Shown: one piece after another, positions 23,556 through 62,910 of the stretch
Numbering within the stretch: position 1 is the first letter of the stretch
Layout: each line of letters starts with the position of its first letter
Origin: Blepharisma japonicum
Taxonomy: Eukaryota > Ciliophora > Heterotrichea > Heterotrichida > Blepharismidae
DNA length: 64,000 nucleotides
NCBI GenBank assembly: GCA_949751835.1
Contig: CATKHK010000003.1
Span: 496,001 to 560,000, forward strand
Direction: 5' to 3'
Made by a program: the position numbers and the translations under genes
Notes under the pieces: model-generated
The model's database searches: none
What the model saw: the letters and a program-made list of their open reading frames with translations, nothing else
Told to the model about the DNA's origin: nothing

Positions 23556-25172
23556 TTAATTATTTCTTTTCTTCAATAAATATTCTTTAAATTCATCAAT
23601 ACTTATCATACCATCTCCATTTGTATCTGCTTCCTTAAAAAATTTCTTTCATTCTGCAGTGTGAATGCCAGGTATAGCTTTTTTCATTTCATTCAAACTT
23701 AATGTCCCGCTCCTATCAGTATCATATAACTTAAATGCTTGTTCCAATTTCTTTATTTGCATTTTTGAATTTCAATTCATAACTGCAGCTACAAACTCTG
23801 AATAATCAATAGCGCCACTCTTGCCCATATCAATCCTGTTAATAATATCCTCAACATTACTTTCTTCACAGACACCTAAAGTTCTGCATCCAAAGATTAA
23901 TTCCTCTCTAGTCAACATGCCATTATGATCTTTATCTAGCTTTCTAAATAGCTCGATATATACTTTTTCTTCACATTGATTAGAAAACTGTGAAACTATA
24001 TACTGATAAATGGATTTTTCAATTTTTGACTGTGCCTGAATAAGCGTTACATTTAATTGAGAAAGGTATTTTAGTGGCTCAGACAAAGTTTTGCTTTCTT
24101 GGCTGGTATTTAAAGTAGAGAATCATGGGTGGTTAAGTGCGTCAGATGCAGAAATTCTTTGTTTATAATTGAGGTTAAGCATTTTCGATATTAAATCTTT
24201 TAGTTCTGCAGAAGAGTAAGAAAGTTCTTTATCATTGAGGTTTAAGCCTCGGTTTACACTGGCAATAAGTTCTTTTTCAGTCTTACCAATAAAAGGAGGT
24301 CTTCCAGTGAGCATAACATATAGGATAACTCCAATGCTTCATATATCACTTGCAGGTTTATTTCAAGATCCTTTTATCATTTCTGGGGCCATATAATGAA
24401 TCTACATAGAGGTTACAGATCTAACTTTGCAACTATTAGCTGATGCTTGCCAGATGTAACCAAAATCTGTTAGTTTTAGGAAGCCATCAGCTTGACCTGT
24501 GCTAACAACGATGTTTTCAGGCCTGATATTTCTGTGAATTACACCACTTCTATGACAATAATTTACGGCGGTTAAGATATCTTGCATATATCTTTTTGCT
24601 AATTGCTCACTAAGTGTATTTTCTAAAATTTTTTCTAGAAGATCTCCTCCAGGGAAATATTCATAAACAAGATAAAAACTTTTTTTGTCTTCCACAATTT
24701 CGTAAAGCTTTACAATATTTGGATGATCCTAAGTAAGTTATACCAGAAAATACAGTTTTTCTGATTCAGAGCATACACTTTTCTGCATTTCAACGCTTAA
24801 AAACGTTTTTTGGATTTCTTTAATTATTTTATTTTCTTCTGTCCTTTTATCTACTACAAGTGTGATGTATCCAAAAGATCCTACGCAAAGTCTCTTTATA
24901 AATTGATATTTTCCCTTTATATATTCTTTATCTCTCTTTATAAAATCATTTTTACTAACCCTATGATTCAACCTATTGGGATTTGATTTGCTACTTGCAT
25001 GCCTTTTACTTGATCTTGAAGTTTTCGATGGTTGAATGTTTAATACAGGTTTTGCTGGCTCAGTCAATTCGTGCTTTAGATTTTTTGCAGATTGAATTGT
25101 TGTGGACATACGTGAGGATTTAAGATCAGTCATACTCTCTTGCTGAGCTTCTCTATCTGCGCAGCATCCCAT
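23556..25172 (-). CDS. acylated CDPK-like pseudokinase with four EF-hands (copy A)
   Basis: The spliced product has 523 residues. Three 15-nt phase-0 introns lie at 24729-24743, 24402-24416 and 24036-24050. MGCC at the N-terminus predicts myristoyl plus palmitoyl anchoring. The kinase domain (about 88-350) keeps the ATP-site Lys (K118 in KIIKEI), the DFG (from 231) and MAPE, but HRD is HRN (208-210), the glycine loop is CVGSFG, and the catalytic-loop Lys is Arg. The four EF-hands are canonical: LDKDHNGMLTREE, IDMGKSGAIDYSE, YDTDRSGTLSLNE, ADTNGDGMISIDE. It therefore can bind calcium and perhaps ATP but should not phosphorylate normally. The third intron (GTAACGCTTATTCAG) has no stop, so if retained it adds five residues. 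It is one of three tandem members. Confidence 0.88.
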
Positions 25173-25588
25173 ATTAATAATAAAATAAAAATGAATTTAA
25201 TCAATTTAAGCACCTAGCTTAAACTCTTAAAAATTTAATGGACAATGAATTCTGTAAATGATTTCCTCTAAAACCTTGACACTATTAGTAAGTAAATTTT
25301 ACTTTTTATCTCAATCATTTACAATTTTTAAGTCTCTTATCTTATGATTTTAGTGTGATCGATTCACCTATCCATTTTGCTTCTTATATATATTATAGCA
25401 AAGCACCATTTGGAAATTCAAAATTATAGCGATTTCATTACTGCTTGAGAAATTACTAATACTTGAAATAAATTTTATAATGCTTAAATAGAAGAAGACT
25501 CGCCATATATGAAAAATGTGGGTTACAAATATAAAATAATTAAAAATTGCATTATTGAAAAGAACCTATTTATTTACATAATTTCTAT
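25173..25588. other. intergenic between CDPK-like copies A and C
   Basis: About 416 AT-rich bases between the start of copy A and the stop of the next tandem copy. It must carry copy A's promoter. No gene or repeat is visible. Confidence 0.4.
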
Positions 25589-27178
25589 TTATGTTATAAT
25601 TTCTTCATTACTTTTATTCAAAAAGAATTGTTTAAATTCATCAATGCTTATAATATTGTCTTTATTTTCATCAAATTTTTCAAAAAAATTATCCCACTCT
25701 GCATCAGAAATTCCAGGGATTCTGGCTTTGATATTTTTTATACTTAAATATCCTTTTCCATTGTCTTCACATAGTAAAAATACGTTCTCAATCTTTTCAA
25801 TGTTTTTCTCTGATTGCCAATCTGAAATTGATGCAAGAAATTCAGAAAAGTCAATTGAGTAATCATCATCAATCTTGATACTATTTAAAATTTTCTCAAT
25901 ATTTTTATTATTGCTAAACCCAATCTTTTTAATCCCATCGAAAAGTTCCTGTTTGCTTATTGATCCATTTTTATCAGTATCAAAGAATTTAAATAATTTC
26001 ATGTATTCTTTTTCTTCTTCAGTAGAAGAAGACTGAGAAATCACAAACGAAAAAATTGCTTTTTCTAATTTCGGCCGTCTCTATATGATAATTACGTAAA
26101 ATGCACTTATAAATTCAATTTCCTGATCTTTTAGAAGAATTGGCTCGTCAGCTTCTTTAAATTTGGTAAACCATTGATGGCCAAGAGCTTTGATTGCTGT
26201 CATTCTTTTGTTAGGGTCAATTATAATCAATTTTTCAATAAAATCTTTTACTTCTGGTGAGTAAAGCTCTATTATGTCTTCAGGTATTGACAGACCAATA
26301 TTAATCTTTTTATATAATTCATGTTTATTACGGGATAAAAAGGGGAGTCTTCTAATTATCATTAAATATACAAGTACTCCAACACTTCACATATCACTTT
26401 CTAGATCATCATAAGAATTTTTAAGGACTTCTGGTGCTAAATATTGAAGCTAAATAGAGTTTACAGTATCAATATTTTTTCTCTGCTTTTTCATTTCTGA
26501 ATCCAGACCAAAATTATTTAGTTTAGCATTTGCAATTGAGGATTTAGAATCAAACAGTATGTTATCTGGGTTTATATTTTGATGAGCAATGCCATTACTA
26601 TGAGAATAAGCTAGTGCTTCCAGCAAACTTTTTGTAATTTTACAAATTAAAGGTTCGCTGAGATATTTCCTCGATAATTTTTCTGAAAGGGAATCTCCCA
26701 TCAGAAACTCTTGAACAAAAAAAAAGCTTCTAGAGGATTCTATGATTTCATAAATTTTCACAATATTTGGGTGATCCTATATGATTTTTACAAGCTCTTT
26801 TAGATTATCAACTCTTTCCATGAATTTTTCACTTTCAGTCCATTCCATCTCTTCCCATCTCACCTCTTTTATTAGCCTTTGCACATTTGTTCTTTTATCT
26901 CGAGCAATCGCAATTATACCATCTGGCTTGTCGTGCAATTTTCTAATTATTGCATAATTTTCTTTTAACGACTCTGGAACATTAAGCACAAAGGATCCTC
27001 TGCTGACTGTTGGAGTGTTTTGCCTTGAAGTTCTACTATCTGGAAGTGGGGAAGCAGTGGGTGCTTTTAGAGTTTTCGGCTTCAGAAATCTTGTTTTGCG
27101 CTTAAATTTTTTACTTTTTATTGGCACTTTTTCACGCACTTGGTTTACCGGCTCAGGCCTCGAATCACAGCAACCCAT
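25589..27178 (-). CDS. acylated CDPK-like pseudokinase with EF-hands (copy C)
   Basis: 514 residues after removal of three 15-nt introns at 26777-26791, 26450-26464 and 26081-26095, all phase 0 and all with an in-frame TAG if retained. MGCC starts the protein, followed by a basic stretch (KSKKFKRKTRFLKPK) that would help membrane binding. The ATP-site Lys remains (K104, RLIKEV), but HRD is HQN (194-196), its Lys is Asn (INPDN), and DFG is NFG (217-219), so both metal- and base-function residues are lost. The end of the kinase domain is degenerate too (IIRRLPF for TGRPPF). EF-hands one (FDTDKNGSISKQE) and four (FDENKDNIISIDE) look able to bind calcium; three (CEDNGKGYLS) is doubtful. Exon two is 312 nt, as in copies A, D and E. 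Confidence 0.86.
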
Positions 27179-27225
27179 ATTATACTATAAATGATTATTT
27201 TTTTGATCTATATGAGATTATTGTA

Positions 27226-28896
27226 CTAGATCGCCATTATTATATTTATATTTGGAAGTTTTTCAGACTTCCCTCTACTCAAAAATTGCACAAGCTGCTG
27301 AATCTTAATTTTTTTATCATCTTTTATGTCAGCAGCTACAAAAAAATCTTGTCATTCTTCATTTTTATATGTTGGAAAAGATGATTTAAGCCTTTTAACA
27401 CTTAAATACCCATCGTTATTTTCATCATATGTTTTCAGCGCATTTTTAATTTTTTCAATTTGGTCAGGAGCATTTCAGTCAGCAAAGGCGGTAACAAATA
27501 CTGTAAAATCAAAATTATTATTATCATCAATATTAGATTTTTCCACAATTTCTTTCATTTCTTTATGATTTGCAAATCCAAATAAATTATGGTTGGCATA
27601 GCACTCTTTTATATTTATTGACTGACTATGATCAACGTCAAGAATGTCAAATATATTTTTAAGCTCTTTTTCTTTAGTTAAACTTTGCTTGCTTATTATC
27701 GAAACCAGAATCGCTTTTTCAATTTTATTTTTGGCCTAAATTAAAATTACATGAAAATTCAAAAATCGAAGAAATGATTTTTGCTTCATAATAGTTCTAT
27801 TAAATCAAGCATGATCTAGAGCTTCATCAGCAGAAATTCTATCATTTGGATCAGATGCTAGCATTTTTCCTAATAAGTCTTGAGCCTCGCTTGAATAATA
27901 TTGGAAAAGGGTTTTATCCAATGTGAAGCCATGCTCAATGTTTTGAAATAGAATTTGATCGGTTTCTCCATGGAAAGGAGGTCTTACTAAAAGCATCATG
28001 TGCAATATAACTCCAAGGCTTCATATGTCACTCTTTGCTGTTTCATTTTTCTCTTGAAAAATTTCTGGAGCTGCAAAATGAAGCTAAATTATTGTTACAG
28101 CACTTAAGTTTGAATTAATTTTTATTTTGTTCCAGGATAAGCCGAAGCTGATTAATTTTGCTGATGTATGATCTAATCTTGAGTCAAAAAGAATGTTATT
28201 TGGCTTAAGGTTTCCATGTATGACATTTTTATTGTGACAGTAACTGAGAGCTGATAAGATACTATGAATGTATACACAAGCCAATTCTTCTGATATATTG
28301 CCTTTGGATATTCTGTCCAGTAAGCTGCCCCCTTGCAGGTTTTCTCTTACAAGGTATACGGAATTTGAAGTTTTAATCAGCTCATAAGTCTTCACTATAT
28401 TTGGATGATCCTGTATAATTTTTACCAACTCTTTGATTTTTCTCAATTTAGCCAAATCTTCTTCAATCTCCCTAACCTTTGATAAATCAATTATTTTTAT
28501 TACTCTCTTAATGTCTGATTCATAAGTGCTAATAAGTTTGACACTACCAAAGTCATTTTTAGAAAATACTTTTAAGGTTTTAATGTTTCCATTTGGTGAT
28601 TTTGAAAAAATTGGCTGGAGAAGATTTAAGCAGGATTCTGAAGACCTTCGGGTGCGAGAGGTTTGCACTGATTGTATAGATGAGGATTCATCGAAATCTG
28701 AGCATGGACCTGTTGGCTGAAGACTTTTTGTAGTCATTTGGCTGGCACTTGATTGAGGTGATTTATCGCCAGAAAGATTTGCTTCATGAGATCTGACCCT
28801 CTTTATTTTTTTCTTGCGTTTTAGAAATCGATTAGGTGTTTTAGGCTTCATTACAGGCTTTTTTTCTACTTCTTCTCTGGAGTTACAACAACCCAT
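27226..28896 (-). CDS. acylated CDPK-like pseudokinase with degenerate EF-hands (copy D)
   Basis: 541 residues after removing three 15-nt introns at 28411-28425, 28084-28098 and 27736-27750. It begins MGCC and has the longest basic/Ser-rich N-terminal arm of the family (about 120 residues). HRD is HGN (222-224) while the Lys of the catalytic loop remains (NLKPNN); DFG is SFG (245-247); the ATP-site Lys is present (RVIKII). Of the EF-hands only the third (YDENNDGYLSVK) looks canonical; the others have lost acidic ligands (DIKDDKKIKIQ). The first intron, GTAAAAATTATACAG, contains no stop, so unspliced RNA stays in frame with a VKIIQ insertion. The stop lies 47 bases from the start of copy C. 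Confidence 0.84.
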
Positions 28897-29397
28897 TATT
28901 GAATTATAAAAAATAACAGTTAAAAATAATGGTATACTTGCAACTTAAAAGAGTTTCAGAATTCAATTATCAATATATAGGCTAAAAATATAGAATATTT
29001 AATAAAAATAAAGTTTTAAACAGCCTAATGAATCTTTATATTATCTTATTTTATATTTTTTGAACAATTTTTTTATTTTTTATTTTAAAATATATCATTT
29101 TTTTAAACAGATTTTGATCTTTGCAATTAATAGTTTGGTACTTTAGCCTCACTATTAAATTATAGAAAATATCTAAACTTCATTAACATATTAAGAGATC
29201 AACTTCAATTTCTATATATTTTATATATAAAATTATAATTTTTTAATAAAAACAAAATTTTTTAAATAATGATTTTTTCTAGAAATGATTATTAAATACA
29301 TATAATAAATCATAATAGCAAGTTAATCAGTTATTTTGAGAAATATAATTTAAAAATCAGTGAAATGAAAATTTTCCTAATGATAAATTATTTGAAT
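28897..29397. other. very AT-rich intergenic stretch
   Basis: It sits upstream of copy D and downstream of the folate-receptor-like gene. It is almost entirely A and T with long T runs. No coding or RNA signal is seen. Confidence 0.4.
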
Positions 29398-32025: not shown

Positions 32026-35000
32026 TTAGGCTTGGTTCTTAGCGTCTTCTGCTTTCGCTTCTGCAAGAGCATCCATTAATTCTCTGATTAAGAATGTTCC
32101 ATATCCATACCCTCCAAGTCCATACTTAGTGACGGTCTTGACAAACAGTTTAGGCCCAATTGAATCGTTGCCTTGGCTTGCTTCAGCCCAGATCTGTGCA
32201 ATTCTTTCATCAGAAAGACAAGGATCGTATTTAAGTGCAGCTGATTTGAACTGTTCTGCATTAGCTCCTTCTGTTCCAAAGGCATCGAATTCTCCAAACA
32301 AGAAAGCGGTATCTTTTCTTTGCTTTGCTTTATAAACGTCAATTAAAGCTACCAAATAGCTAGCCTTGCTGACAACCCAGTCTTCACTTCTGTTCCATTC
32401 CATAAGGTTCTTCATATTAATCTTAGCCATGAAGCTTTCTTTGGTGATTTCTCCATTTCCTCTTGTATCTAAGAGTCTCATAAGTTTATTGATGTTTTCA
32501 TCAGAAATCCAAAGGTCTAGATCTTCTTTGGTGCCGCTGATAAATTCATTAGCATCAATTGTGCCACCAGCGTCTTTATCAAGCATGTTGAAGATGGCTT
32601 CAGGGGTCTTTCCGAGTTTGGCCATCTTGTGGCAAATCTTGTAGGCGACAAAGTCTTCGTGTGAGACTGCTTCTGGCTTGATGTATTCTAAAGCAAGAGT
32701 TCCCATTTCTCTATCTCCCATAAACATGGTATATAAGAGCTCAATAACGTCGCTCAACAATGCAACTCCTCCAGTGCCTGCAGCTTCAAAGGCAGCACGG
32801 CCGCTTGCTTTACCTTTAGGTCCAGATGCCTTCTTGCCTTGGTTTTGCCTTGTTCTTTCAAGCTTGTCAATAAGTGGGTGGAATCCAACTCTAGCTCTAA
32901 CAAGATACACAGAAAGGCTGTTAGGTACTGGGTCTGGGTGGAACATTTGAAGAAGTCTGCAGTAGAATGCAGCATATTTGTTGCCTTCACTGAACAGTTG
33001 ATCAAGGGCTGGTAGTAATCCTGCTAAATGTTTCATAGCAAGTTTGGAAATACCGAAGGTCTTGTTGAGGTGCTCCATTAAGAAGTCAGGCATTGGTTTA
33101 GGAGTCTTGTGCTCTGACAAGTCTTTTCTGTCAGCTTCGAATTTCTTATCCATGAGGTCTTCCAAGAACTTGAAGACGTTCAAGTAGCTGATTGGCTTTT
33201 CATTTGGAATGCCAGCTTCTCTGATTGCTTTGGTGATTGCGTTGCTTTCAATCATGGTCTTGTTGTCCTCTTGCATTTCAATGACAGCGGCTTCGTAGTG
33301 TTTCATATCTTGTTCTTCGACATTGTCTGGGATTTCAATTGTGCTGGATGCTACAACTACTTGGCGGTCTCCTTTGATGGTCTTCTTGCTCATCCAAGTT
33401 CTGAAGTATTGCTGTTGCTTGTTCTTGTATGAGTTGATAAATCTGATTAAGAAGTTTCTGTTCATTGCTAAGGAGTGTCTTGTATGAAGTCCTAACATTT
33501 CAGCTCTCAGCTTTTCAATGGTGTCGTTAAGGTCAGAAATTTGGTTTTCTTTCTGAGCAATTTCAGCAGTCATTTTATTGATAGCTTCTTGGACATCTCC
33601 TGATTTGTCTCCACTGAATTCTTCAAGGTAGTCGATCTTGTGCTTCAAGTTTTGGTTTTCTTTCTGCAGAGATGCGACATCTTTTTGAAGTTTATCAACT
33701 TGGCGAGTCTTGTATTTGAGGTTTTCGTTTTCGTTGGTAAGATCCTTGATGCGTCTTTGTAAGTCGCTGAGGTCGATTTCTTGAGATTTAATCTGAGTGT
33801 CTTGATCTTCTTTTTCTTCTTTGATTAGAGAGTATAGCTGTTGGTATCTTCTAGCATTTTCAAGTTGCTCTTCAAGCTCGTTTAGTGCTTTGTCCTTATC
33901 TTCAAGCATATGCTCAAGGTAAGCAATTTCTTCTGGGTTTCCAGCTTGGCCGAGTTTGAGTTTCTCTTCAAGTTCATTTCTTTCGGTTTCAAGCTTGAGG
34001 ATGTGAAGCTTAAGTTCATTCTTTTCTCTGATTTGTTCAGCTAATTTTTCTTCAAGTTCAGCCTTTTCGCCTAACAGTTTTTGGATTTCTCTGTCTTTCG
34101 CTTTGACGATGTCTTCAAGTTCATCAGCATGCTTAGACTTAGCAGCAAGTTCATCTCTGGCTTGTCTAAGATCATTTTTAAGAGCGTCCAAAAGTTCGAG
34201 TTTTTCTTTATCGCCTTGGAAGTTCTTTTCGCTTGACCTTTGAAGTTGGTCTAAAGAGTTTTGCAAGTCTCTGATTTGGGTGTCTTTTTCTTTGTTGACT
34301 CTTCTGATGTTTCTAAGTTCTTTGTTGGCGTCATCAAGCTCTTCAGTGGTTCTTGACATTTCTTCCTTCAAGTTCTCAATTTCGTTGTTTGCATCAGCAA
34401 CTTTGATCTTGAGTTCAGAAATGACGGTTTCTTTGTCAGCTGATTCTTGGGTTAGTTTTTCGACTAGTTTGGAGTTTTGTTCGACTGAGTTTTGGAGCAA
34501 GTGAATTTGGGCTTCATATTGAACTCTCTGGCCTTCAAAGGTAGCTTTGGTGGTTTGCAATTCGTTGAGTTTGTCTTGGACATCTCCTTTGAGCCTGTTG
34601 ATTTCTTTAGAAAGTCTTTCTCTTAAATCTTTTCTGAGTCTTTCTAGTTTCTCCCATTGATCAAGTCTAGCAGTAACTCTATCAATGACTTCTGGCATGT
34701 TAGCTGGTGATTCTTCTTCAATCTTTTCAATTGCTTTCTTAACTTTGTCAAGAGCATCTTTAGTTTTGGCATCATCAGAAGAAATAGTGTTGGCTGTTTC
34801 TCTGATGGCTTTCTTCAGTAAATCTTCAGTTTGGATATCAACATCGTCGATGCTTGATCTGAGACCTCCAGCTTCTTTCACAAGCTTGTTTTGGAGTTTA
34901 GTTTGTGCTTGTCTGGAAGGAAGAAGTTTGCTAACATTGGTCGATACCAATTCAAGTGAGTCAGTGATGGTGTTTGGCTCTCCTTGCTGAAGGGCTCTTG

Positions 35001-38000
35001 CTTCTTTGAGATCTTTGGCTTGAGCCTTATCGTCAGATGATCCGCACAGTCTGAAAAGTCCTGCAAAGACCGCGTCAGTTTCAGTGTCGTCAGCACCTGC
35101 TGATTCTGCAATTAATTTAATTAAGTTTGCAAGTTTTCCTTTAATTGGAGTGTCATTAAGCAATGATTGTTTCTTTTGCTCAATGGTGTTTGCGTTGTCA
35201 AATCCGCCTAAAATTGAGCTAGCTAACTGAGGAATTGTAGTGGCAACTCCTGAAGGGTCAGTTAGTGCCTTGAGTGGAGCAATATCAGCTTCTAAGCTTG
35301 GGAACAATTGAGAAACAAGTGCTTGAAGAGTTGCATAAGATACTTTAATCGCTCTAAATTCAGCTCCTTCAATGGTTCTGAGCATTTCAATAGTTTCAGC
35401 TTCTCTATTATCTTTAGGCTTGGCTGCATCTCTCAGTTTTTGAAGTTCTCTTTCCAAGTTGATTCTTCCAAGCAATCTTAAGACTAAGTCAACAACGTTG
35501 TCAAGTTCTTGAGCTGAGTATTCGTCCTCTTTTTGCTTGAAGAGGTCGAGCTGAGCTTTAAGAAGATCTTCACCTTCTGGGATGACCATTTCAGTTTCAG
35601 TAATGGATGCCTTGACAGTTCTTGCTTTATCACTGTCAATCTCTCTGAGTCTTTCCAAAACGCTCATAACCTTATCATTTATGCTCAAGACAAGCCTGCT
35701 TTGCTCAAGTCTAAGTCCAGCGTAATGCTCAATCTTAGGTGCGTGGTCTTCTTTAAGAACATCTTCTGACTTAGATTTCAAGTTCTTCTCAACAACCTTG
35801 TTGTCTGGTGTGCCGAAGTACTTGGTCAAAGCTTCAATGACTGGGATTGCCATTGCTTGTTCTCTGTTATAGGCTTCACAAATAAGCTCAGCATTGACGT
35901 CAAGTCCTTGACCTTTGAGAATTTCAGTCCAAAGGACAGTGGAGAAGGTCTTGCTACCAGTTCTCTGAGAAATTGTGGAAGTTGCTTTGTCTTCAAGCTC
36001 TGTGATGACTTCTTCGACTGGCTTTTCTAGAAGTTTGGCTAGGAGTCTAAGAATTAATTTGCTGTATCGTGTAGCGAGTCTTCCTACACGCTTAGGAGTC
36101 AAATCAGAGAGTTTCTCAAATCTCTTGTTGCATTTATCAATGAGGGCTTGCTCGTCATGAGGGTGAGCTTGAGAGAGGATTTCAACTGCTTTATTGAGGT
36201 AAATGATGAATTTTGCGACATCATTATGGTCTGGGCCAGCAAAGAATGGCTTGATTTCTCTTAGCTTGACAACTGGATGAAGCTTCATCTTCTTGTTGAC
36301 TCCATAGTGGGCCTGTCTTGCTTCTTCATCAGTGACTGGTGGACCATCTTTGGTGACCTCATTAAGGTTGAATTCAGACCAATCTGCAGCCAATTCAGTA
36401 TAATAAGGCATCAACTGGTGAGGTTCAGTTGGTACTTTATCCTTTCTTGCCACAAGTGCGTCAAGTTCTGGGTGTTCAGCAACGCTTGCTTTCTCATACA
36501 ACTTCTTAGATTCTAAGTTCAAGTTTTCAAGTGTAGTCAAAATCGACTTAATTTCATCTTCACCTGGTTCTTGTTCTCTTAATTTGACCATGAGTTGGTC
36601 CAATAAATCTCTCAGTCTACTTTCTACTTCTTTTTCAAGTTCTGGATAAGTCTTCAAGTAATCATCTAAAAGCTCAAGGGCTCTAGTATTATTGTCTGGA
36701 ATTTCATCATGGACAGCTTCGTGGATATTGTTAACGAGGTCTTTGGCTTCTGCAAGCTGCTCATCGCTTCCTACAAGTCCAGCTAGCCAGAGAAGTCTGT
36801 CAGTGTCGTTATCTTTTTTCATTCTGAGGGAATGAAGAAGTTCAACAGGGTCAAATGGCAATGAAGCTGCTGTTTGTTTCTTGGTCAAAGCTGCAACTGC
36901 TGCGTCAACATTTTCGTCATCTTCAGGGAGTCCAGTCATTCTGAAGTAGACATTAATGAGATACCCAATTCTCTTTGTCAAGTCTGCAAGGTTTTCAGCT
37001 GGTTTGTCTTTAAGTTCTTCAACCTCAGGTGGGACTGGCACATTGAAGAATTTGGAACCATTATCAACAAGCTTGTGAGCCTTATTAAGAGTTGTATATA
37101 GGTTCTTGAAAACGTCTGGGGCCATAACGAATTCTCTCTTTTCTTTTTCTAAGTCATTGAGGACATTGAAAACATCACTTACAGTTTCCATGTTGGTTCT
37201 GTTTTCTTGCATGTTGCTGTTGACTTCATCTTTGAACTTTCTGAGCTCGTTGACTCTGTCATCAATATTTGGTTTGCTTCCATAGATCAGAGCACCCATG
37301 CCTTCTAAGGTTTCGAAGGAGTCTTTGACAGATTCAGTAGCTAAATCAGTTATATCAATAGCTGATTGTGGACCTGCTCCTTTCTTGGATCTTACTCTGA
37401 CAGCTTTAGGTCTTCTGCCTCCTGCTCCTCCTGAGCTTGCGGCTTGGCTGACTGCATCTTTGGATTTTTGAATCAAAAACTCCAAAAGTTCTTCTTGATT
37501 TGAGATGGCTGGGAATAGCTCTTCAATGGTGGACTTAATGGTGATAAGTGCTTCTCTTGCTGTGTCAGGGACAACTCCAGTTACTGCATTAATTCCTTGC
37601 TCACAGACTTCATTGGCTTGTTCTTGGTCACTTTCGTCACCAACTCCTTCAGCTAAATCTTTGATATTGCGAGAAGCTGCATCTTGGGTGATTTTGCCAT
37701 TAACTAATAAGAACTTGAGAAGAGTGACTGGATCATAAGGAAGAACGCATTCTCCTTTGCCTCTCTTTTTGATTGTTTCGTTGATTTCTTGGTTGTCTTC
37801 GTTAGTGGCGTCATCGTCCATGCCAATAAGTTTGCCTAATAAAGCTCTGAGGACTCCTGTCCATCTGTTAAGTTTGTCGACTTGAGGAGCTAGTTGATTT
37901 GGAACTTCAAGCTCAGACAATGTCTTAATGATAGGGAGTTCAGGCTTTTCGAGGGTTTCTGCGAGTTCTTTGGCGAGTTCTGCATCTTTAGCGCTGATAT

Positions 38001-39681
38001 CTGCAATTTTCTGAACAAGATCATCGCCCATAAGTTCTTTCTTGAAATCTTCTTGGTCTCTGGCAAGTCTGAAGATTTGGTCAAGCAAGATGTTATACCT
38101 TTGTCCACTAGCAATACCTTCGTCGATTTCTGAAAGCCTCTGGTGTTGTCCAGCTCTGATTTGCTGGGTAATTTCGTCGTTAGGCTTGTAGTTGGCTTCA
38201 ATCTTATCTAAAGTAGCTTCTCCTTTATGAAGGGTATCAGCAAGTTCTTTAATAGGTCTTGCAAGTTTGTTATTGATAGCTTGGGTTTCTTCAGGAGTTT
38301 CTTCTCCGTCAAAAGTGCCAACTCCAATCATCTTAATAAGAGATTTTGCAAGGTTTTGGTATCTATCGTTGACGTGAACTCCATCTTGCAATGAAACTGC
38401 ATTTTCTCTATCTTTTTTGACTCCAGCATGCTCGTGAAGGAAAGGATGAACTCTATCTGGCTTAATAATAGGGAGAAGGGCAGACACAATTGCATCATCA
38501 GCGTCAAGGATTTTATTTAGCTGAGCTGCCGTGACACTTTGGTCAGAAATGCCTTTGAATGATTTTTGTTTAAGGTCTTCTAGCTTATTTTGGAGATCAG
38601 AAAGTTCATTAAGTTTCCCAACAATTGAAAGTGGTTCATCGAAATTTGGATCTTCTAGGGCACTGATAGCATCAGCAAGTTTGGCAGCCTCTTCTTGGAG
38701 GTCAGGAGTCATAGCGACTAAGCTTTTCAAGGTGTCTTGAGATGCATCAACTTCGGCTTTTTGCTTTCTGAAAAGATCAGTGAGTGGAACGACCATTTTA
38801 GCCTTTTCCATAGCTACTGCAGTTTTCGCACCTTCAGTGCCAACTTCTGGTCTTTTGCCTTCCCAATCCATCTTGTAAGCTTGGTCAGGCTTTTTGTCTT
38901 TGACGAAACCCCATTTCTTGTCATCACGATTCCATGTTTTTTCTTGAGATTCGTGCTCAGGAGTTTTTTCTGTTTTTTCTTCCCAACTGAGATCTCCTTT
39001 TTTGCCAGTTTCGAGTCCAGTGTATTTGTCGCCTTCCTGCTTCCATTCTTTTTTCTCATTGTAATCAAAATCTGGATCATCTTTCCAGCTTTCTCCCCAT
39101 TTCTTATCTCCTTCTTGGTATTCTTTTTCTTCGCCTCTAGATGTGCCTAAAGTCCATACCTTTTCCTTTCCTGAGCTTGTTGGATCACTCCAGAATTTTT
39201 CAGTGTAATCTTCAAGACCTTGAGGAGTGCATCTAACGCTTTGTTTGGTTCCATTAGTGACGTCTCCTATCTTTGTGGACTCTTCAAGGCTTTTAACCTT
39301 TGGACCAAGTTCCCATGTGGTATGAACTTCGTGGTCAGGGAGGTATTTGATCACCACACCCCATTCACGTGGATGCTTATGCCAAGTTTTGGCAACAATA
39401 TGAATATCTTCTTCTACATACCAGTGCTCGTAAAACCAAGTGTCTGACCACTTGTCGTGCCCAAACTTCTCTCCAGTTTGGCTTGTTGAGTCGAACCACT
39501 CATAGATGTCGCAATTGTCAACTACCCAATAGGCCTCTTGACCTGTTTCAGTTGTTTTGGTGAAATGTTCCTCTGCTGAGACTGCTGATATGAGCTTATT
39601 ATAGATAAGCCAAGTCTCGTAGTATTTCATTGAAAAGGCTGGGTAAGACCCAGACCACCAACTTTCAAGTTTAGAAGCCAT
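32026..39681 (-). CDS. giant helical/coiled-coil protein with W-rich repeats and EF-hands
   Basis: 2551 residues in one unbroken exon. Residues 1-285 hold short Trp-centred repeats (KWSDTWFYEHW, KKWGESWKDD, KKEWKQEGDKY, DKKWGF), about 20 Trp in all. Residues 285-1600 are repeated helical units recurring about every 250-300 residues, with related blocks such as LLGKLIGMDDD..VLPYDPVTLL and VYFRMTGLPEDD..SLPFDPVELL. A long coiled coil runs from about 1640 to 2060 (ELDDANKELRNIRRVNKEKD). The C-terminal domain has FLIRFINSYKNKQQQYFRTW and a pair of EF-hands (LDKDAGGTIDANE, LDTRGNGEITKES). All about 30 Trp are TGG, none TGA, and GC is higher than in neighbours, suggesting strong expression. I infer a cortical or fibre structural protein; the exact family is unknown. 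Confidence 0.85.
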   Translation of the reverse strand: MASKLESWWSGSYPAFSMKYYETWLIYNKLISAVSAEEHFTKTTETGQEAYWVVDNCDIYEWFDSTSQTGEKFGHDKWSDTWFYEHWYVEEDIHIVAKTWHKHPREWGVVIKYLPDHEVHTTWELGPKVKSLEESTKIGDVTNGTKQSVRCTPQGLEDYTEKFWSDPTSSGKEKVWTLGTSRGEEKEYQEGDKKWGESWKDDPDFDYNEKKEWKQEGDKYTGLETGKKGDLSWEEKTEKTPEHESQEKTWNRDDKKWGFVKDKKPDQAYKMDWEGKRPEVGTEGAKTAVAMEKAKMVVPLTDLFRKQKAEVDASQDTLKSLVAMTPDLQEEAAKLADAISALEDPNFDEPLSIVGKLNELSDLQNKLEDLKQKSFKGISDQSVTAAQLNKILDADDAIVSALLPIIKPDRVHPFLHEHAGVKKDRENAVSLQDGVHVNDRYQNLAKSLIKMIGVGTFDGEETPEETQAINNKLARPIKELADTLHKGEATLDKIEANYKPNDEITQQIRAGQHQRLSEIDEGIASGQRYNILLDQIFRLARDQEDFKKELMGDDLVQKIADISAKDAELAKELAETLEKPELPIIKTLSELEVPNQLAPQVDKLNRWTGVLRALLGKLIGMDDDATNEDNQEINETIKKRGKGECVLPYDPVTLLKFLLVNGKITQDAASRNIKDLAEGVGDESDQEQANEVCEQGINAVTGVVPDTAREALITIKSTIEELFPAISNQEELLEFLIQKSKDAVSQAASSGGAGGRRPKAVRVRSKKGAGPQSAIDITDLATESVKDSFETLEGMGALIYGSKPNIDDRVNELRKFKDEVNSNMQENRTNMETVSDVFNVLNDLEKEKREFVMAPDVFKNLYTTLNKAHKLVDNGSKFFNVPVPPEVEELKDKPAENLADLTKRIGYLINVYFRMTGLPEDDENVDAAVAALTKKQTAASLPFDPVELLHSLRMKKDNDTDRLLWLAGLVGSDEQLAEAKDLVNNIHEAVHDEIPDNNTRALELLDDYLKTYPELEKEVESRLRDLLDQLMVKLREQEPGEDEIKSILTTLENLNLESKKLYEKASVAEHPELDALVARKDKVPTEPHQLMPYYTELAADWSEFNLNEVTKDGPPVTDEEARQAHYGVNKKMKLHPVVKLREIKPFFAGPDHNDVAKFIIYLNKAVEILSQAHPHDEQALIDKCNKRFEKLSDLTPKRVGRLATRYSKLILRLLAKLLEKPVEEVITELEDKATSTISQRTGSKTFSTVLWTEILKGQGLDVNAELICEAYNREQAMAIPVIEALTKYFGTPDNKVVEKNLKSKSEDVLKEDHAPKIEHYAGLRLEQSRLVLSINDKVMSVLERLREIDSDKARTVKASITETEMVIPEGEDLLKAQLDLFKQKEDEYSAQELDNVVDLVLRLLGRINLERELQKLRDAAKPKDNREAETIEMLRTIEGAEFRAIKVSYATLQALVSQLFPSLEADIAPLKALTDPSGVATTIPQLASSILGGFDNANTIEQKKQSLLNDTPIKGKLANLIKLIAESAGADDTETDAVFAGLFRLCGSSDDKAQAKDLKEARALQQGEPNTITDSLELVSTNVSKLLPSRQAQTKLQNKLVKEAGGLRSSIDDVDIQTEDLLKKAIRETANTISSDDAKTKDALDKVKKAIEKIEEESPANMPEVIDRVTARLDQWEKLERLRKDLRERLSKEINRLKGDVQDKLNELQTTKATFEGQRVQYEAQIHLLQNSVEQNSKLVEKLTQESADKETVISELKIKVADANNEIENLKEEMSRTTEELDDANKELRNIRRVNKEKDTQIRDLQNSLDQLQRSSEKNFQGDKEKLELLDALKNDLRQARDELAAKSKHADELEDIVKAKDREIQKLLGEKAELEEKLAEQIREKNELKLHILKLETERNELEEKLKLGQAGNPEEIAYLEHMLEDKDKALNELEEQLENARRYQQLYSLIKEEKEDQDTQIKSQEIDLSDLQRRIKDLTNENENLKYKTRQVDKLQKDVASLQKENQNLKHKIDYLEEFSGDKSGDVQEAINKMTAEIAQKENQISDLNDTIEKLRAEMLGLHTRHSLAMNRNFLIRFINSYKNKQQQYFRTWMSKKTIKGDRQVVVASSTIEIPDNVEEQDMKHYEAAVIEMQEDNKTMIESNAITKAIREAGIPNEKPISYLNVFKFLEDLMDKKFEADRKDLSEHKTPKPMPDFLMEHLNKTFGISKLAMKHLAGLLPALDQLFSEGNKYAAFYCRLLQMFHPDPVPNSLSVYLVRARVGFHPLIDKLERTRQNQGKKASGPKGKASGRAAFEAAGTGGVALLSDVIELLYTMFMGDREMGTLALEYIKPEAVSHEDFVAYKICHKMAKLGKTPEAIFNMLDKDAGGTIDANEFISGTKEDLDLWISDENINKLMRLLDTRGNGEITKESFMAKINMKNLMEWNRSEDWVVSKASYLVALIDVYKAKQRKDTAFLFGEFDAFGTEGANAEQFKSAALKYDPCLSDERIAQIWAEASQGNDSIGPKLFVKTVTKYGLGGYGYGTFLIRELMDALAEAKAEDAKNQA

Positions 39682-51396: not shown

Positions 51397-53418
51397 TTAA
51401 TTAAGGTTGGTTAGCTGCTCCCACTCGCCTTCATAAGGATTGAAAACCATCATATAAACTTTGTAGTTGTTAATATTCATTTGGGTGGGATCAATGATGA
51501 TTTCTAAAGGAGTTTCTCCATAGTGTCCTTGAAAATGCAATTTCAATTCTAAAACTTGGTTGAAGTGTTTGGCATATAATTTCATAGGGTCTTTGGTAAG
51601 CACTACTTGATTAGTTCCAGATTTTACTTCAATCTTTGGGAAAAGACTGTATGGATCTTCATTTGAATCAATTCCTTGAAAATGCATGCATTCCTTGACA
51701 GTTGAATGCCCTGGCTCTGCTTCAGAAAGTTTAGAAATTTTTATCCTTCTAACAAGTCTAAATTGAGGGATTTCAAGACCTAGCCTTTCCATAAGTTTTT
51801 CCATGACTGTATCACACATAGCATGAATTACAAGCTGAGCTTTTCTATCAAGGGGAGTCTTTTGTAAGTTCACAATTACAAGTCTTCCTTGTTTCCCTAC
51901 AAGTTCAGGGATGTTTGCTGCTGGGGTCACTCTTAAGCTTGATCCCATTGCAAGGCATAGATCAGAAATCGAAGCCATTTGAAAAGCTTTTTCCAAGATA
52001 TTTTGATTTAAATTTTCCCCAAAATTAATAATGGTATCTAAAAGGTCTCCTCCACAATAAGGATCATCACATTTTTGCCCTGTTTCGTGCTGGTTTACAA
52101 AAGGATTTGACCTAACGCCATAATCTCTCATATATTCTTTGTGGCATCTGTTGCAAACTTCAAGATTTGTATTTCCATGCAATTCTCCTAAATTTTCTGG
52201 AGGAATTCCACTTTTTCTATGCATCCCATCAGTGTTTTGAGATGCTACATACTTTAGTATGCCTTCTTGCATGAGCTTGACAAAGCTCATATGAGTTGGT
52301 GTTGGGATCGCTTTTTCCATTGCTACTCTTTTGGTTGGCCTATCTGGCTTTTGTCCATTGTGCGCTTTTCTTTCCCAAGCTCCTGGGCCAGTTTGTAGCA
52401 CTGTTCCATACCCGCTTCTGTAGTCAGGAATCCCTGAGCTTGTAGAAACCCCAGCTCCAGTAAAAGTCATAAAGTGTGAGGACTCTCTAACCCATTGAGC
52501 CAAAATATCAATTTTTCTTTCAAGTTCTTCTGGAGGATCAAAATATTCTTTTTTTTCTTCTTCAGTCCTATGTGCTGATGTATGAGTGTTTATTTTCCCA
52601 AACTTTTTTTCTGCACAGACATTATAAGCATCATTTAGTTCGTCACTTGCAATATATGATTCACATTGATAGCACCAAAATGAAAGGTCACTGAAACTTA
52701 AAGATAAGCAATGAGAGGTTTCAAGGGCATGCATTAGCATGTGCTCTTTTATATAGCGAGAACATTTGACGACACCACATTTGAGACAGACCCAGTTTTC
52801 GCCTACATATTGGCAGTCTCCACATGGATCAACTATTTGAATATCTTTTATTGCTTCTAAAGAACTATCAAAATATTCGGGTAAGATATGAGGACAGTCA
52901 TATTTAGGGGATACTGCATACATTCCGCCAAACTGTCTTGCATTTTTGGCTGCTGCGAGCTCTTTTTCAAGCTCGTCAACACGAATTCCATCACCTGGGT
53001 CTAAGCGAGGTTGATCTATGTCTATATCCATTGGCTGAGGCCCTGTTTGGACTTGCACAAAGCGAGTGTCTTGGTTTTGGAAGGTCTCCACAATAGAAAC
53101 TAATAAAGGGCTTGTAATGTAAGATTCACAGCTATAGCACCAAAAGGAACAATCTGTGAAGCTGAAAGCAATCGGATGGGATTCTTCACTGTTATGCAAT
53201 GACATATGAGAATTTATATACCGAGAACATCCGATAAAGAGACACTCAAGGCATAACCAGTTTTCATTTTTATTGGAGCATAGGTGGCAGGGAGATTTTC
53301 TTGAAATTCTTGCATAAACATCCATATCGATTTTTACGTGTCTAGAAATGTGAGGACAATCTTCTTTTGGGACTACTCCGAAGGAACCTAAAAATTCTTG
53401 TGGTTGGTCACTTGACAT
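51397..53418 (-). CDS. sirtuin deacetylase with two UBP-type zinc fingers
   Basis: 673 residues, no intron. Two ZnF-UBP domains come first: about 20-105 (DCPHI, CHLCSNKNENWLCLECLFIGCSRY, SFWCYSCESY) and about 172-258 (DCPHI, CGDCQYVGENWVCLKCGVVKCSRY, SFWCYQCESY). They are the kind in HDAC6 and USPs that grip the free C-terminus of ubiquitin. The sirtuin domain spans about 305-560 with GAGVSTSSGIPDYR (321-334), QNTDGMH (394-400), catalytic H414 (ELHGN), zinc Cys 422/425/450/455, NFGENL and GSSLRV. GAGVSTSSGIPDYR and VNLQKTPLDRKA point to the SIRT6/SIRT7 group. It is a NAD-dependent deacylase, probably nuclear. All Trp are TGG. A C-terminal beta-rich extension (to 673) is unassigned. Confidence 0.9.
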   Translation of the reverse strand: MSSDQPQEFLGSFGVVPKEDCPHISRHVKIDMDVYARISRKSPCHLCSNKNENWLCLECLFIGCSRYINSHMSLHNSEESHPIAFSFTDCSFWCYSCESYITSPLLVSIVETFQNQDTRFVQVQTGPQPMDIDIDQPRLDPGDGIRVDELEKELAAAKNARQFGGMYAVSPKYDCPHILPEYFDSSLEAIKDIQIVDPCGDCQYVGENWVCLKCGVVKCSRYIKEHMLMHALETSHCLSLSFSDLSFWCYQCESYIASDELNDAYNVCAEKKFGKINTHTSAHRTEEEKKEYFDPPEELERKIDILAQWVRESSHFMTFTGAGVSTSSGIPDYRSGYGTVLQTGPGAWERKAHNGQKPDRPTKRVAMEKAIPTPTHMSFVKLMQEGILKYVASQNTDGMHRKSGIPPENLGELHGNTNLEVCNRCHKEYMRDYGVRSNPFVNQHETGQKCDDPYCGGDLLDTIINFGENLNQNILEKAFQMASISDLCLAMGSSLRVTPAANIPELVGKQGRLVIVNLQKTPLDRKAQLVIHAMCDTVMEKLMERLGLEIPQFRLVRRIKISKLSEAEPGHSTVKECMHFQGIDSNEDPYSLFPKIEVKSGTNQVVLTKDPMKLYAKHFNQVLELKLHFQGHYGETPLEIIIDPTQMNINNYKVYMMVFNPYEGEWEQLTNLN

Positions 53419-56922: not shown

Positions 56923-57072
56923 TATATTTTAATTAATACAAACCTAATATATTGGTATCCTTTATATTTCCTGATCTAAGAAAATTTACCACTGCTCTCA
57001 AGTATTTATATTAAATATAAGGATCTTCGGAAAATTTAATTATGAAATAGAAACATTATATGTAATCATATG

Positions 57073-58488: not shown

Positions 58489-58521
58489 TATATTCCAAGA
58501 AAAATTATTAATTTTATACAT

Positions 58522-58908
58522 TAATGTGGACGTTTAATATAGATATAAATTAATAATTGCTCTTTGGATATGTATTTTCCAAGCCTACAACAGTAAAATT
58601 AGTTTTACTTTGCATTTTCGAATATTTATATTGATACACATGCTCTTTAGCTGTTTTAATATAATTTTTATTTAAATTGGATAAGTTGCATGCAAAAATT
58701 ATTTTTCTTCGCATTAAAAGCAATTAAATGAAATATTTTGCTATTTTTTCTTTATATTTAAAAAAATTTAAGCATACAATTTAATGACTCCTAGAGTCAG
58801 TGGCTTATTCATTGAAATCCCAGAAATTTTACGTCATATTCCTAAAGCGGTTGACCATTGGCTTAATAGACATGCACCCGATAATATTGTTTTATGACCA
58901 AAAGTTAA
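58522..58908. other. intergenic, with an overlapping upstream ATG frame
   Basis: AT-rich until about 58780. From the ATG at 58784 a forward frame (IPEILRHIPKAVDHW) stays open, with TGA as Trp, past the kinase start at 58909 but in a different frame. No 15- or 16-nt intron can join it to the kinase frame because a TAA directly precedes that ATG. It may be an upstream regulatory frame or chance. Confidence 0.35.
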
Positions 58909-60393
58909 ATGGAATCATTGGCACAAGCGTTGATTCAAACTCGTTACCAAGAGCTGAGAAGCTCTATTAACAATGATTATGTCCAGTTTTATACTCCAGA
59001 AACTCACATCAAAACATTTTATGAGGTTGGTCCAAGGATCGATGGAAACAAACCTCATCGATTTGCTCAGGTCAGAATGTTCACTCATAGGCAGTTTCAT
59101 GCTAAGCGAGCCGTAAAATCCTACTCTCTAAGCGATGCAACACTAACAAGAGATAGAAGCGATATAATGTTTCCAAGCAAGCAAGGCCTTCTCTTTTCTA
59201 ACATCTTAAACGAAGTATCAGCACTAGCAAGGCTGCATCATCCAAATATAATCAAACTATATGAAGTATTTCTGGAGCCAAAATACATTCACTTGGTGAT
59301 GGAATTTTGCAAAGGAGATACACTTTTTGAACTGTTGCGTCAAATTCGAATTATTCCTGATAGTAAAGGAATTTCTTTTACAGCACAAATTTTAGATGCT
59401 GTGAGGCATATCCATAGTCTCAGAATTTGCCATCGAGGACTATGGGTTGAAAACATCATGTTTGCAGATAGTGAAAGAACTCAAATTAAAATTATGGGGT
59501 TTGCAAGCTGCACAAAAATGACTAGTGCAAATTTAACTGAAAAATGTGGAAACCTTTATTATACCGCACCTGAAATTTTTTCAGGATCGTATAATGAAAA
59601 ATGTGATGTGTGGTCTACTGGTGTGACTGTCTACACCATGCTGGTTGGAGCGCAGCCTTTCCAAGGAGAAACTTATGGAGAAATCGTAAAAAGTATCATG
59701 AAAGCAAAAATATTGAGGCCTTCTCAATTTAAAAATTTGCCAGGTGAAACTCGGCACTTTATAAAAGGCATGCTTAAAAAAGAAAATAGAGCAAGCGCAA
59801 GTGAACTCCTTGACTCAGCTGTGCTATACACCTATAATTTCTCACAAAAATCATTGATTTTACAAAAAATACTGCGTGCAAATTTAAATCCAGAAGATGA
59901 CAGGATGCTAGAAAAGAAGCGAAACCTTGCAAATAAGCTAAAATTTGCCTTGTCAAAGATTCTGGCAGCAGCAAATATGCTTCCTGACGTCCCTGCTATA
60001 GAGAAACTTTGAAAAGATCTTGACTCAAACAGAAATGGAGAACTGAGACCTGATGAGATTCAAGAAGGTCTAACCAGATTTTTAAAGCCTCAAGAAGATG
60101 TGCAAGAAAAAGCCTTGGCAATCTTTAAAAGAATGGATATCATAAGAAATCGCAGCATAACCCATGATGTTTTCATCGGCCTCGTCCACGATATCCCAGA
60201 TGTGCATTATCTTTATCAAGTATTCACTACGCTTGATTCTGATAAAGATGGTCTAATTAATGCTGAAGATATTGCCTTGTACATAGACGGAAAAAGAGTC
60301 GACAGACTTAATCGCTTAGTTGCAGAAGTGCTTAACAAAGAAACTCTGAGTTTTGAAGATTTCTACATCTTAATAAGGAAATTTGCAATATAA
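58909..60393 (+). CDS. kinase-like protein with EF-hands (pseudokinase, copy X)
   Basis: 494 residues, no intron. The kinase domain spans about 38-310. The ATP-site Lys is kept (AVK70), the alpha-C Glu is E102 (NEVSALARLHHPN) and APE is intact (220-222), but HRD is HRG (175-177) and DFG is GFA (197-199), so both the catalytic base and the metal-binding Asp are lost. EF-hands follow: LDSNRNGELRPDE (with a TGA Trp just before it) and LDSDKDGLINAED are canonical, others degenerate. Unlike the MGCC copies it lacks introns and acylation signals, so it is a separate lineage of calcium-linked pseudokinase. The start is the only ATG that does not meet an upstream TAA in frame. Confidence 0.85.
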
Positions 60394-60421
60394 ATAAAAA
60401 GTTATAATTATCAGTTTAATA

Positions 60422-60766
60422 ATGGGAAATTGCTATTGTAATCAAGCTGTGAAAGATTTTGGGCTTCGTGAAGAAATACACTCAGGGACTGTTGTGCTTT
60501 ATATAAAAAAAGGGTGTGCTAATTCTGATCGAGCTCAAGCCTTATTAAAAGCTATAAACATAAAGCCAAGAACTATTGAAATAGAAGATACAAAATACCA
60601 AAATTTGAGATTCGCATTAAAAGGATTTACGGGGCAAAAAGATCCACCGTATATTTTTATTGGAGGAAAACACTTCGGAGGCTTGTATGACTTGGAAGTT
60701 GGAATTAAGCAAAAAACTGTACAGAAACTGGTAAAAATTGCAGAAGAAAGAAATGCTGAATACTAA
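60422..60766 (+). CDS. glutaredoxin-like protein with acylation signal
   Basis: 114 residues, no intron, 28 bases after the kinase-like gene. The thioredoxin fold shows VVLYIKKGCANSDRAQALL (active site CANS, a monothiol form with C32 only, where classic glutaredoxins have CPYC) and DPPYIFIGGKHFGGLYDL (the cis-Pro 'TVP' and 'GG.DL' glutathione-binding parts). N-terminal MGNCYC fits myristoylation and palmitoylation, unusual for a glutaredoxin, and would hold it on a membrane. It may reduce or glutathionylate membrane proteins, or bind a [2Fe-2S] cluster, though the Cys motif is not CGFS. Confidence 0.8.
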   Translation: MGNCYCNQAVKDFGLREEIHSGTVVLYIKKGCANSDRAQALLKAINIKPRTIEIEDTKYQNLRFALKGFTGQKDPPYIFIGGKHFGGLYDLEVGIKQKTVQKLVKIAEERNAEY

Positions 60767-60809
60767 ATAAGGACATTTATTGTTTTGTAATATTTAATAT
60801 AAGTGACTT

Positions 60810-61211
60810 ATGAAATTTCTTATTGACTTAGGAGAAACTGAGGAGAGATTTGATTGACTTCAGACAAGGGAAATAAAAGAAGAAGATCTGAGTGAAATTA
60901 GATGAGCTCTAAGAAGAGCTATATGAGGATCATTTCTTGGAGGATTCAGCATTTATTCATCACTTGCATGGTACAGGTGAAAAGGAGGGTTTAAGCGTTA
61001 TGAATTAGATAAGGCAGGATCAATGATAGTTTCAATCACTATCCCAATCGTTGGGCTTACAGGATCTGTTCTTATCTTTGCTGCTGGGCTTTACTTTTTT
61101 TTCAAGACTACAGATAGGATGTACTTTAAATACAAGCAATTAGAAGATTTTCAATCAGAAGGAATTAGTATCAATCAGCCAATTACTGACACAACAGCTA
61201 TTGAATCTTAA
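60810..61211 (+). CDS. small two-helix membrane protein, unknown
   Basis: 133 residues, no intron, not recognised. Two hydrophobic segments at about 35-50 (AIWGSFLGGFSIYSSLAWY) and 72-96 (VSITIPIVGLTGSVLIFAAGLYFFF) are joined by a basic loop (RWKGGFKRYELDK). Both ends are charged and probably cytoplasmic. Four of its five Trp codons are TGA, the highest share seen in the window. It lies 43 bases after the glutaredoxin gene and converges on CDPK-like copy F with 97 bases between the stops. Confidence 0.65.
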
Positions 61212-61308
61212 GTATAAGATATAATCATAGATTTATAGATTTAAGATCGATAATTACATACTGTAATATTATTCAGAAGATTTGTATTAATTTGCGAATG
61301 AATAATAA

Positions 61309-62910
61309 CTATTTAGCTTTAAATTTGACTGGATCGTTTTTCATTTCCCTCAATAAAAATTGTTTAAATTCATCGAAGCTTAGAGTTCCATCATTATTTA
61401 CATCAGCCTCTTTGAAGAACTTCCGCCATTCAGAAGACTCAATCCCAGGAACTGCTTCAATCAACTCTTCTAAACTTAATTGCCCATCCCCGCTTTTATC
61501 ATATAAAGCGAATGCTTTTCTTAATTTCTCAACTTGGGCTGCTTCATTTCAATTAGTCGCAGCAAGAATAAACTCAGAGTACTCAATATCTCCATTACCA
61601 TCTATATCACAGCTTTCAAGGATTTCTTCGACTTCTCCAATATCTTCTAAAGCTAAAGTTTTGCATTGTTCTACAAGCTCAGCCTTGCTGATAATTCCAT
61701 CATTATTGGAATCTAGTGATTTGAATATTGCAATGTATTCTTTTTCTTCAGCTATATCTGAAAACTGTGAAACTATAAAAGTAAAAATCGATTTTTCGAT
61801 AACAGTTTGAGCCTATATAAGGTATACATGGAATTTTGAAACTTGAGTAATGACTTTTTGGTTTCTTACATTTGTTTTGCTTAGCTTACTATTTTCAAGT
61901 ATCCATGGATGGTTCAATGCATCAGCTGCACTTATTCTTCTTGTGCAGTCTACCTCGAGCATTTTTTTCAGCAAATCCTTTACTTTAGGCGAATAATCAC
62001 GAAATAGCTCTTCACTTAAAACTACTCCTTCATTAATTTTTTTTTCTAATTCACTCGAAGATTTGCCTATAAAAGGAGGTCTGCCTGTCAGCATAACATA
62101 GAGAACTATCCCTAAACTCCAAATATCACTTGAAGTCCTAAAATATTTGCCTTGAATCATTTCTGGAGCTATATAATGAAGCTGTATAAGTATTACAGTA
62201 TCCATTCGACTTAATAATAGATCGCAAACACCTGGAGGCGGCTCGAAGTCCATTATTTTTAAAATAGCATCACTAGATTTTGATTCGAAAACAAGGTTTT
62301 CTGGTCTTATATTTCGGTGGACAATTCCTCGGCCGTGATAATATTTCATGGCTCCTAGTATATCAGAAATATAAACACTTGCATAATATTCATTTACTTG
62401 GCCATCGATTATTCGATCAAAGAGATTACCACCCATCAAACTTTCAAAAACAAAATAAATTTTATCCTTCGACTTGATAATTTCATAAATCTTTGCTATA
62501 TGTGGATGATCCTAAGTTAGTGTTACAAGTTCCAATAATTTATTTAGTTCTTTTCAGCCTTTTGCTTCCAACTTTGGGTTTATTAAGGACTTACTTATTT
62601 CTTTTATCAGTCTTTGGCAGTTATTTCTTTTGTCAATAGCAAGTTTATTGTCGCCAAATAGCCCAGTTTCTAGCTTTTTAATGATTATAAAATTTTCTGT
62701 AATTGCCTTGGGGACAGTTTTTATAAATTTAGCACGGTTTAGGCCTGAAGATTTTTTCCTTATTTTTAAGGGATCACGTTTCGATGTAGCTTCCCTTTGA
62801 AGATTACTATGGTTTTGTTTTTTATTTTTCCCTTTTGTGTTTCCTTTCTTTGCAGGAGATTGTTGTTCCTCAATATTTGTGGGTTCTTCTCGAATCTCAC
62901 AGCAGCCCAT
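61309..62910 (-). CDS. acylated CDPK-like pseudokinase with four EF-hands (copy F)
   Basis: 518 residues after splicing three phase-0 15-nt introns at 62512-62526, 62182-62196 and 61813-61827. It begins MGCC, with a basic KKGNTKGKNKKQNH arm. The ATP-site Lys is kept (QRLIKEI), HRD is HRN (193-195), and DFG is DFE (216-218); IAPE is intact. All four EF-hands are canonical: LDSNNDGIISKAE, CDIDGNGDIEYSE, YDKSGDGQLSLEE, ADVNNDGTLSFDE. So calcium binding is under constraint while catalysis is not. Its second intron, GTAATACTTATACAG, has no stop and would insert VILIQ if retained. Exon two is 315 nt, one codon longer than in the other copies. Confidence 0.88.

Follow-up and report, generated by a model that had tools for sequence, protein, structure and literature searches.

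A clade of CDPK-like genes without the catalytic HRD aspartate in Blepharisma japonicum

In the excerpted text of PMC4718504, HER3 and the JAK JH2 domains carry asparagine at the position of the HRD aspartate and bind nucleotide; HER3 does so via the lysine, the catalytic-loop asparagine and the DFG aspartate, with one cation. Ciliate kinomes contain CDPK expansions, and 38 unplaced kinases of Ichthyophthirius were deemed likely pseudokinases (PMC3341644, in part). Paramecium tetraurelia is credited with about 101 CDPKs (PMC3019232, in part). For Blepharisma stoltei, the available part of PMC9942806 describes a genome of 41 Mb with an AT content of 66%, introns mostly of 15 and 16 bp, and UGA read as Trp. 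The available part of PMC9942856 holds nothing on kinases. No Asp-less CDPK clade is found among the literature matches listed, a set that does not extend to the preprint on the Stentor kinome to which PMC9371601 refers.

The locus described here is a window of 64,000 nucleotides (C3:496001-560000) in a 45.2-Mb, 224-contig assembly; its genes were translated with TGA as Trp. This code, the 15-nt introns and the low G+C content agree with Blepharisma. A sequence-only reading of this window had reported six genes that combine a kinase domain with EF-hands and that all lack the catalytic HRD aspartate. We compared these genes with their relatives throughout the assembly.

Window genes and their CDPK ancestry

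The motifs of the six genes were re-read from gene models (Table 1). This confirms that the HRD aspartate is missing in 6/6 genes, that the beta3 lysine and APE are each present in 6/6, and that DFG is intact in A alone; the DFG aspartate is also gone in C, D, E and X. If a pseudokinase is defined as a kinase domain without at least one of the VAIK lysine, the HRD aspartate and the DFG aspartate, all six genes belong to this class because the HRD aspartate is absent. Each carries a Pfam PF00069 kinase domain (E-values of 1.2e-46 to 1.1e-61) and EF-hand domains above the Pfam cut-offs, the weakest being those of D, E and X. Three 15-nt GT..AG introns interrupt each of the genes A, C, D, E and F at corresponding positions, and the reading frame of each runs from MGCC to the stop codon. 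The MGCC start, a predicted acylation site, is thus present in five of the six window genes, with X as the exception.

Table 1. Kinase/EF-hand genes and other features of the window, in window positions
Feature	Position	Strand	Exons	Start	HRD-position motif	DFG-position motif	Canonical EF-hands	Remark
Gene A	25172-23556	-	25172-24744, 24728-24417, 24401-24051, 24035-23556	MGCC	HRN 24536-24528	DFG (kept)	3 (strict)	
Gene C	27178-25589	-	27178-26792, 26776-26465, 26449-26096, 26080-25589	MGCC	HQN 26584-26576	NFG	2	
Gene D	28896-27226	-	28896-28426, 28410-28099, 28083-27751, 27735-27226	MGCC	HGN 28218-28210	SFG	1	
Gene E	46145-44568	-	46145-45738, 45722-45411, 45395-45042, 45026-44568	MGCC	HRN 45530-45522	SFG	1	
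Gene F	62910-61309	-	62910-62527, 62511-62197, 62181-61828, 61812-61309	MGCC	HRN 62319-62311	DFE	4	
Gene X	58909-60393	+	intronless, single 494-aa kinase+EF frame	MESLAQ (no MGCC)	HRG 59431-59439	GFA		separate five-place family
Frame between X and F	60398-60766							glutaredoxin-like by eye
Frame between X and F	60798-61211							
Tandem genes	10094-14289	+						three genes, beta-mannosyltransferase (BMT) Pfam domain
Long frame	32026-39681	-						2551 aa
Sir2-domain frame	51397-53418	-						Sir2 domain and two UBP-type zinc fingers

The earlier count of EF-hands was slightly generous. A strict 12-residue loop rule, applied to A, C, D, E and F, returns the four hands claimed for F but only three of the four claimed for A; in X, Pfam EF-hand_7 matches at 5.8e-10. 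By canonical loop counts, the description of these proteins as putative calcium sensors suits F and A, suits C less well and hardly suits D and E.

Descent from CDPKs, as had been proposed, is supported by the alignment of A over residues 72-519, junction included, to the solved four-EF CDPK 3lij (E = 1.4e-80). Protein X aligns to CDPK-type chains over residues 53-489 with E-values reaching 8.3e-46. A structure model of X, built from a 13-row alignment with the window exons, was poor (mean pLDDT 59.7, pTM 0.42); the pLDDT is mostly below 50 in the N-lobe, while it climbs to 70-87 in the C-lobe and the EF blocks.

An approximate DNA pattern for HRN followed by a hydrophobic residue, K or R, and P yielded 12 sites in the 45-Mb genome, compared with 365 sites for the HRD form, and the reversed-pattern controls gave 1 and 2 matches. 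With A, E and F as three of these 12 sites, the observation goes beyond chance.

Several other features of the window were recorded in passing (Table 1). The 2551-aa frame is listed without TGA codons, has a G+C content of 0.40 against about 0.30-0.35 in its surroundings, and has only weak EF-hand matches, below the cut-off, near its C-terminus.

An Asp-less clade among the CDPK-like genes

A genome survey with the EF lobe of F as the query gave 153 matches, of which the best 150 were listed. A kinase exon was read at 145 of these 150 EF places, those left out being C64, two on C81, C90 and a fifth, C23:295078, which itself yielded no kinase exon. The HRD aspartate is kept at 110 of the 145 CDPK-like places and absent at 35 (24%), with 64 Asp-keeping and 32 Asp-less places in a batch of 96, and 46 and 3 in a batch of 49. 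By comparison, the abstract of PMC4718504 puts the pseudokinase share of human kinases at about 10%. The true number of dead kinases is expected to be higher than that counted, because six genes scored as Asp-keeping carry HGD with GFK/GFE, or IQD/LYD with VGK. CDPK-like genes with such combinations, at C42:24006-31712, C23:446209-451201 and C92:19351-23677, are likely further pseudokinases.

Kinase trees of 99 and 56 rows were built without the catalytic-loop and DFG columns. Of 103 kinase exons, seven could not be paired with an EF place and were dropped before counting: X, two relatives, an incomplete array gene and three other kinases. Four rows were omitted from the 99-row tree. Five window genes (A, C, D, E and F) group in a clade of 21 genes, none of which has the aspartate. 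Its support is an SH-aLRT of 98 in the 99-row tree, and an ultrafast bootstrap of 100 with an SH-aLRT of 99 in the 56-row tree, where 100% of the 200 bootstrap trees contain it. When only the EF lobe is used, the identical 21 genes again form a clade (SH-aLRT 96), which argues against the possibility that decayed active sites have drawn these genes together by attracting each other.

In addition to the five window genes, the clade comprises C3:561701, just outside the window, four genes on C10, one on C86 and ten on C123. A 22nd member, the incompletely covered C123:27243, was assigned by its position, HLG motif and MGCC start. An 11-gene tandem array at C123:26500-61976 is made up of Asp-less MGCC genes with HLG in place of HRD. 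Outside the array, nine of the 11 members have Asn at the HRD aspartate, encoded by AAT or AAC, each a single step from GAT or GAC; the array has Gly. Open full-length models of 498-594 aa are available for 19 of the 22 members, and in 10 of these the model includes all three introns; two array members carry kinase-domain frameshifts or are misassembled.

These trees, with their all-Asp-less clade of 21 rows, favour the proposal of the sequence-only reading that the five MGCC copies in the window descend from one ancestral loss of the aspartate followed by expansion; the check it had suggested, a tree of the MGCC/HRN copies, places A, C, D, E and F together. Gene X does not share in that loss. 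By search and by both the kinase and EF trees it belongs to a separate family, found at five places in the genome, and the aspartate is lost in the four members read (HRG, HRG, HRA and HRA), the relative on C14 lying outside these four. X and its family would thus have become Asp-less separately from the MGCC clade. The six Asp-less window genes therefore do not represent six independent events: five share a single clade, and X comes from a second lineage.

The X-F pair (window positions 58909-62910) is repeated in the same order and orientation at C10:159332-164260, with 85% identity for X and 57% for F, and both copies of both genes are Asp-less. Neither of the two frames that lie between X and F in the window has a tblastn match in this C10 interval. 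Judged from sequence, the C10 pair is an old segmental duplication.

The enclosing subfamily of 43 genes (SH-aLRT 100 in the 99-row tree) includes 16 genes that keep the aspartate, 13 of them as HRD. The fewest Asp changes number four within this subfamily on the 56-row tree and nine on the 99-row tree, where at least seven are forced by starred branches. On these reconstructions, the HRD aspartate was lost more than once in the genome. Three HAN/HSH genes on C27 and C48 lie outside the 21-gene clade and may share its Asp loss.

An MGCC start does not mark the dead clade, since, of 59 tree genes with this start, 32 keep the aspartate (26 as HRD, 3 as HGD and 3 as IQD/LYD) and 27 do not. Whether most MGCC members keep HRD, a point that the earlier reading had raised against itself, turns on the definition: strict HRD occurs in fewer than half (26/59) and the aspartate by itself in a narrow majority (32/59). 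An MGCC start was called in all 22 clade genes, in 20 of the 22 genes that make up the rest of the 43-gene subfamily and in 18 of 56 further genes, by scripts that favoured an MGC-type start wherever one existed.

Retained residues and selection

Among the 22 clade members, the HRD aspartate and the first glycine of the glycine loop are both absent throughout (0/22 each), the HRDxK lysine is found in one, and the beta3 lysine in 20. In the 21 that are readable, the DFG aspartate is kept in five, and the APE glutamate, the F-helix aspartate and the F-helix tryptophan are each kept in all 21. Genes A and F retain the beta3 lysine, the DFG aspartate and the catalytic-loop asparagine; E lacks this asparagine and the DFG aspartate. 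Mean pairwise identity was compared between 12 HRD relatives and 14 of the 21 clade members. It falls from 0.50 to 0.32 in the N-lobe and from 0.55 to 0.36 in the EF lobe, with the largest drop near the catalytic loop (0.71 to 0.42) and the smallest in the C-lobe (0.53 to 0.40). EF-hands are mostly degenerate in D, E, the C86 gene and two of the C10 copies, and therefore Ca2+ switching cannot extend to the entire clade.

Omega was estimated for pairs of close paralogues by the Nei-Gojobori method with TGA as Trp. For X and its C10 copy, omega is 0.09 (dS 1.03), and 0.07 for the kinase domain (codon bootstrap 0.04-0.12). Gene F gives 0.25 against C3:561701 (dS 1.59) and 0.14 against C10:162672 (dS 2.19), with 0.23 and 0.26 for the kinase domain alone in these two pairs, and four HRD pairs give 0.06-0.09 (dS 1.56-3.17); because dS is high, and saturated in several pairs, the values for F and for the HRD pairs are rough. 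Four pairs from the C123 array yield 0.18-0.29 (dS 0.39-1.07), and three of them 0.15, 0.28 and 0.23 for the kinase domain alone. Where bootstrap intervals touch 0, as some do, the sole cause is that infinite dS was given the value 0.

Six comparisons show purifying selection on the dead kinase domain, with omega values of 0.07-0.28 and high dS in some. This evidence covers X, F and the array pairs; a close paralogue is lacking for A, C, D and E. The claim that these genes are not chance decayed copies is therefore upheld for the tested pairs (X/C10, the F pairs and the array), and chance decay is retained as an explanation for the two frameshifted array members. Clade branches are longer than those of Asp-keeping relatives, and together with omega values above those of the HRD pairs this indicates that partial relaxation of the clade is real.

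Possible roles and comparison with known systems

We consider it rather probable that CDPKs were repurposed in this lineage as membrane-tethered non-catalytic regulators, now a clade of about 22 members whose probable role is that of a switch or docking platform and not of an enzyme, by a mechanism that we infer as follows. Trees and motif tables indicate that the common ancestor arose from CDPKs with an MGCC-type N-terminus, and that the HRD aspartate and the first glycine-loop glycine had disappeared by the time that tandem and dispersed duplications enlarged the family. Myristoylation and palmitoylation of the MGCC N-terminus would anchor the protein at a membrane, and Ca2+ on the EF lobe would shift the junction helix in the manner of active CDPKs. 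Without releasing catalysis, this shift might uncover or mask the preserved C-lobe, which would serve for docking or allosteric contact, and the protein could thereby scaffold, sequester or activate a partner, perhaps its own Asp-keeping paralogues. Gene A, which keeps the lysine, the DFG aspartate and the catalytic-loop asparagine, and perhaps F, may still bind nucleotide like HER3. Independence of Ca2+ would be expected for D, E and the other members that have few canonical EF-hands.

It is unlikely that A and F (with E a still poorer candidate) are instead weakly active kinases with slow, HER3-like phosphotransfer despite the asparagine, perhaps concentrated at a membrane. According to the excerpted PMC4718504, weak trans-autophosphorylation on vesicles is seen for HER3, which has the same Asp-to-Asn change, and HRN with the beta3 lysine in A, E and F, as well as the DFG aspartate and catalytic-loop asparagine in A and F, are compatible with such activity. 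However, the first glycine-loop glycine is lost in 22/22 members, the HRDxK lysine is altered in 21/22 and the DFG aspartate persists in only 5/21, and this explanation hardly fits the 11-member HLG array or X. Unlikely as well is a role as decoys, in which membrane-bound proteins would compete for the substrates or docking sites of Asp-keeping CDPKs and so damp Ca2+ signalling. The N-terminus and architecture are shared with most of the subfamily's 16 Asp-keeping genes, and the C-lobe is the least altered part of the kinase domain; but the divergence among the 22 copies suggests specialised and not generic roles.

That the clade consists of relaxed or decaying duplicates without a role of their own seems very unlikely. 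Long branches, degenerate EF-hands in several copies and frameshifts in 2/22 could be read in this manner; against it stand the omega values of 0.09-0.25 (X/C10, F/C10 and F/C3:561701) and 0.18-0.29 (four array pairs), the 19/22 open full-length models, and the APE glutamate and F-helix aspartate kept in 21/21. SelO is a pseudokinase that AMPylates, a precedent for different chemistry. We would give very little credence indeed to an extension of this kind, in which the clade would form a Ca2+-gated, membrane-tethered non-kinase signalling layer with A, and perhaps F, still binding nucleotide and performing or controlling a different chemistry and the others serving as partners; if true, this ciliate would possess, in about 22 dead CDPKs, a Ca2+-response system of a separate kind.

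In the preferred reading, that of non-catalytic regulators, a family of about 22 genes, maintained by selection where tested, appears to go back to one founding loss. Because dead and live CDPKs with a shared N-terminus and switch module coexist in one genome, the non-catalytic output of a Ca2+-dependent kinase becomes directly addressable.

The closest known systems differ from this clade in various ways. CDPKs (e.g., PDB 3lij, 3i79 and 3q5i) likewise unite a kinase domain, junction and EF lobe in a single chain, whereas here the catalytic aspartate, the first glycine-loop glycine and mostly the DFG aspartate are lost, and several EF-hands are degenerate. The coccidian rhoptry kinases (ROPK) are secreted, have no EF-hands and are not derived from CDPKs. 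Their likeness lies in being restricted to one lineage and in the lack of a catalytic residue from most of the family (PMC3239843, in part). CASK, which is among the PDB matches of A, resembles these proteins in its CaM-kinase-type domain, unusual nucleotide pocket and membrane association (PMC4718504, in part). It is set apart by a cation-independent activity of its own. HER3 and the JAK JH2 domains belong to other kinase groups, act in a receptor or cytokine setting and have no EF-hands. They nevertheless share the asparagine that replaces the HRD aspartate, and the nucleotide-binding residues of HER3, as far as the excerpted source gives them, are all present in A and F. The CDPK-derived pseudokinase radiation can be regarded as a variant within the known pseudokinase class.
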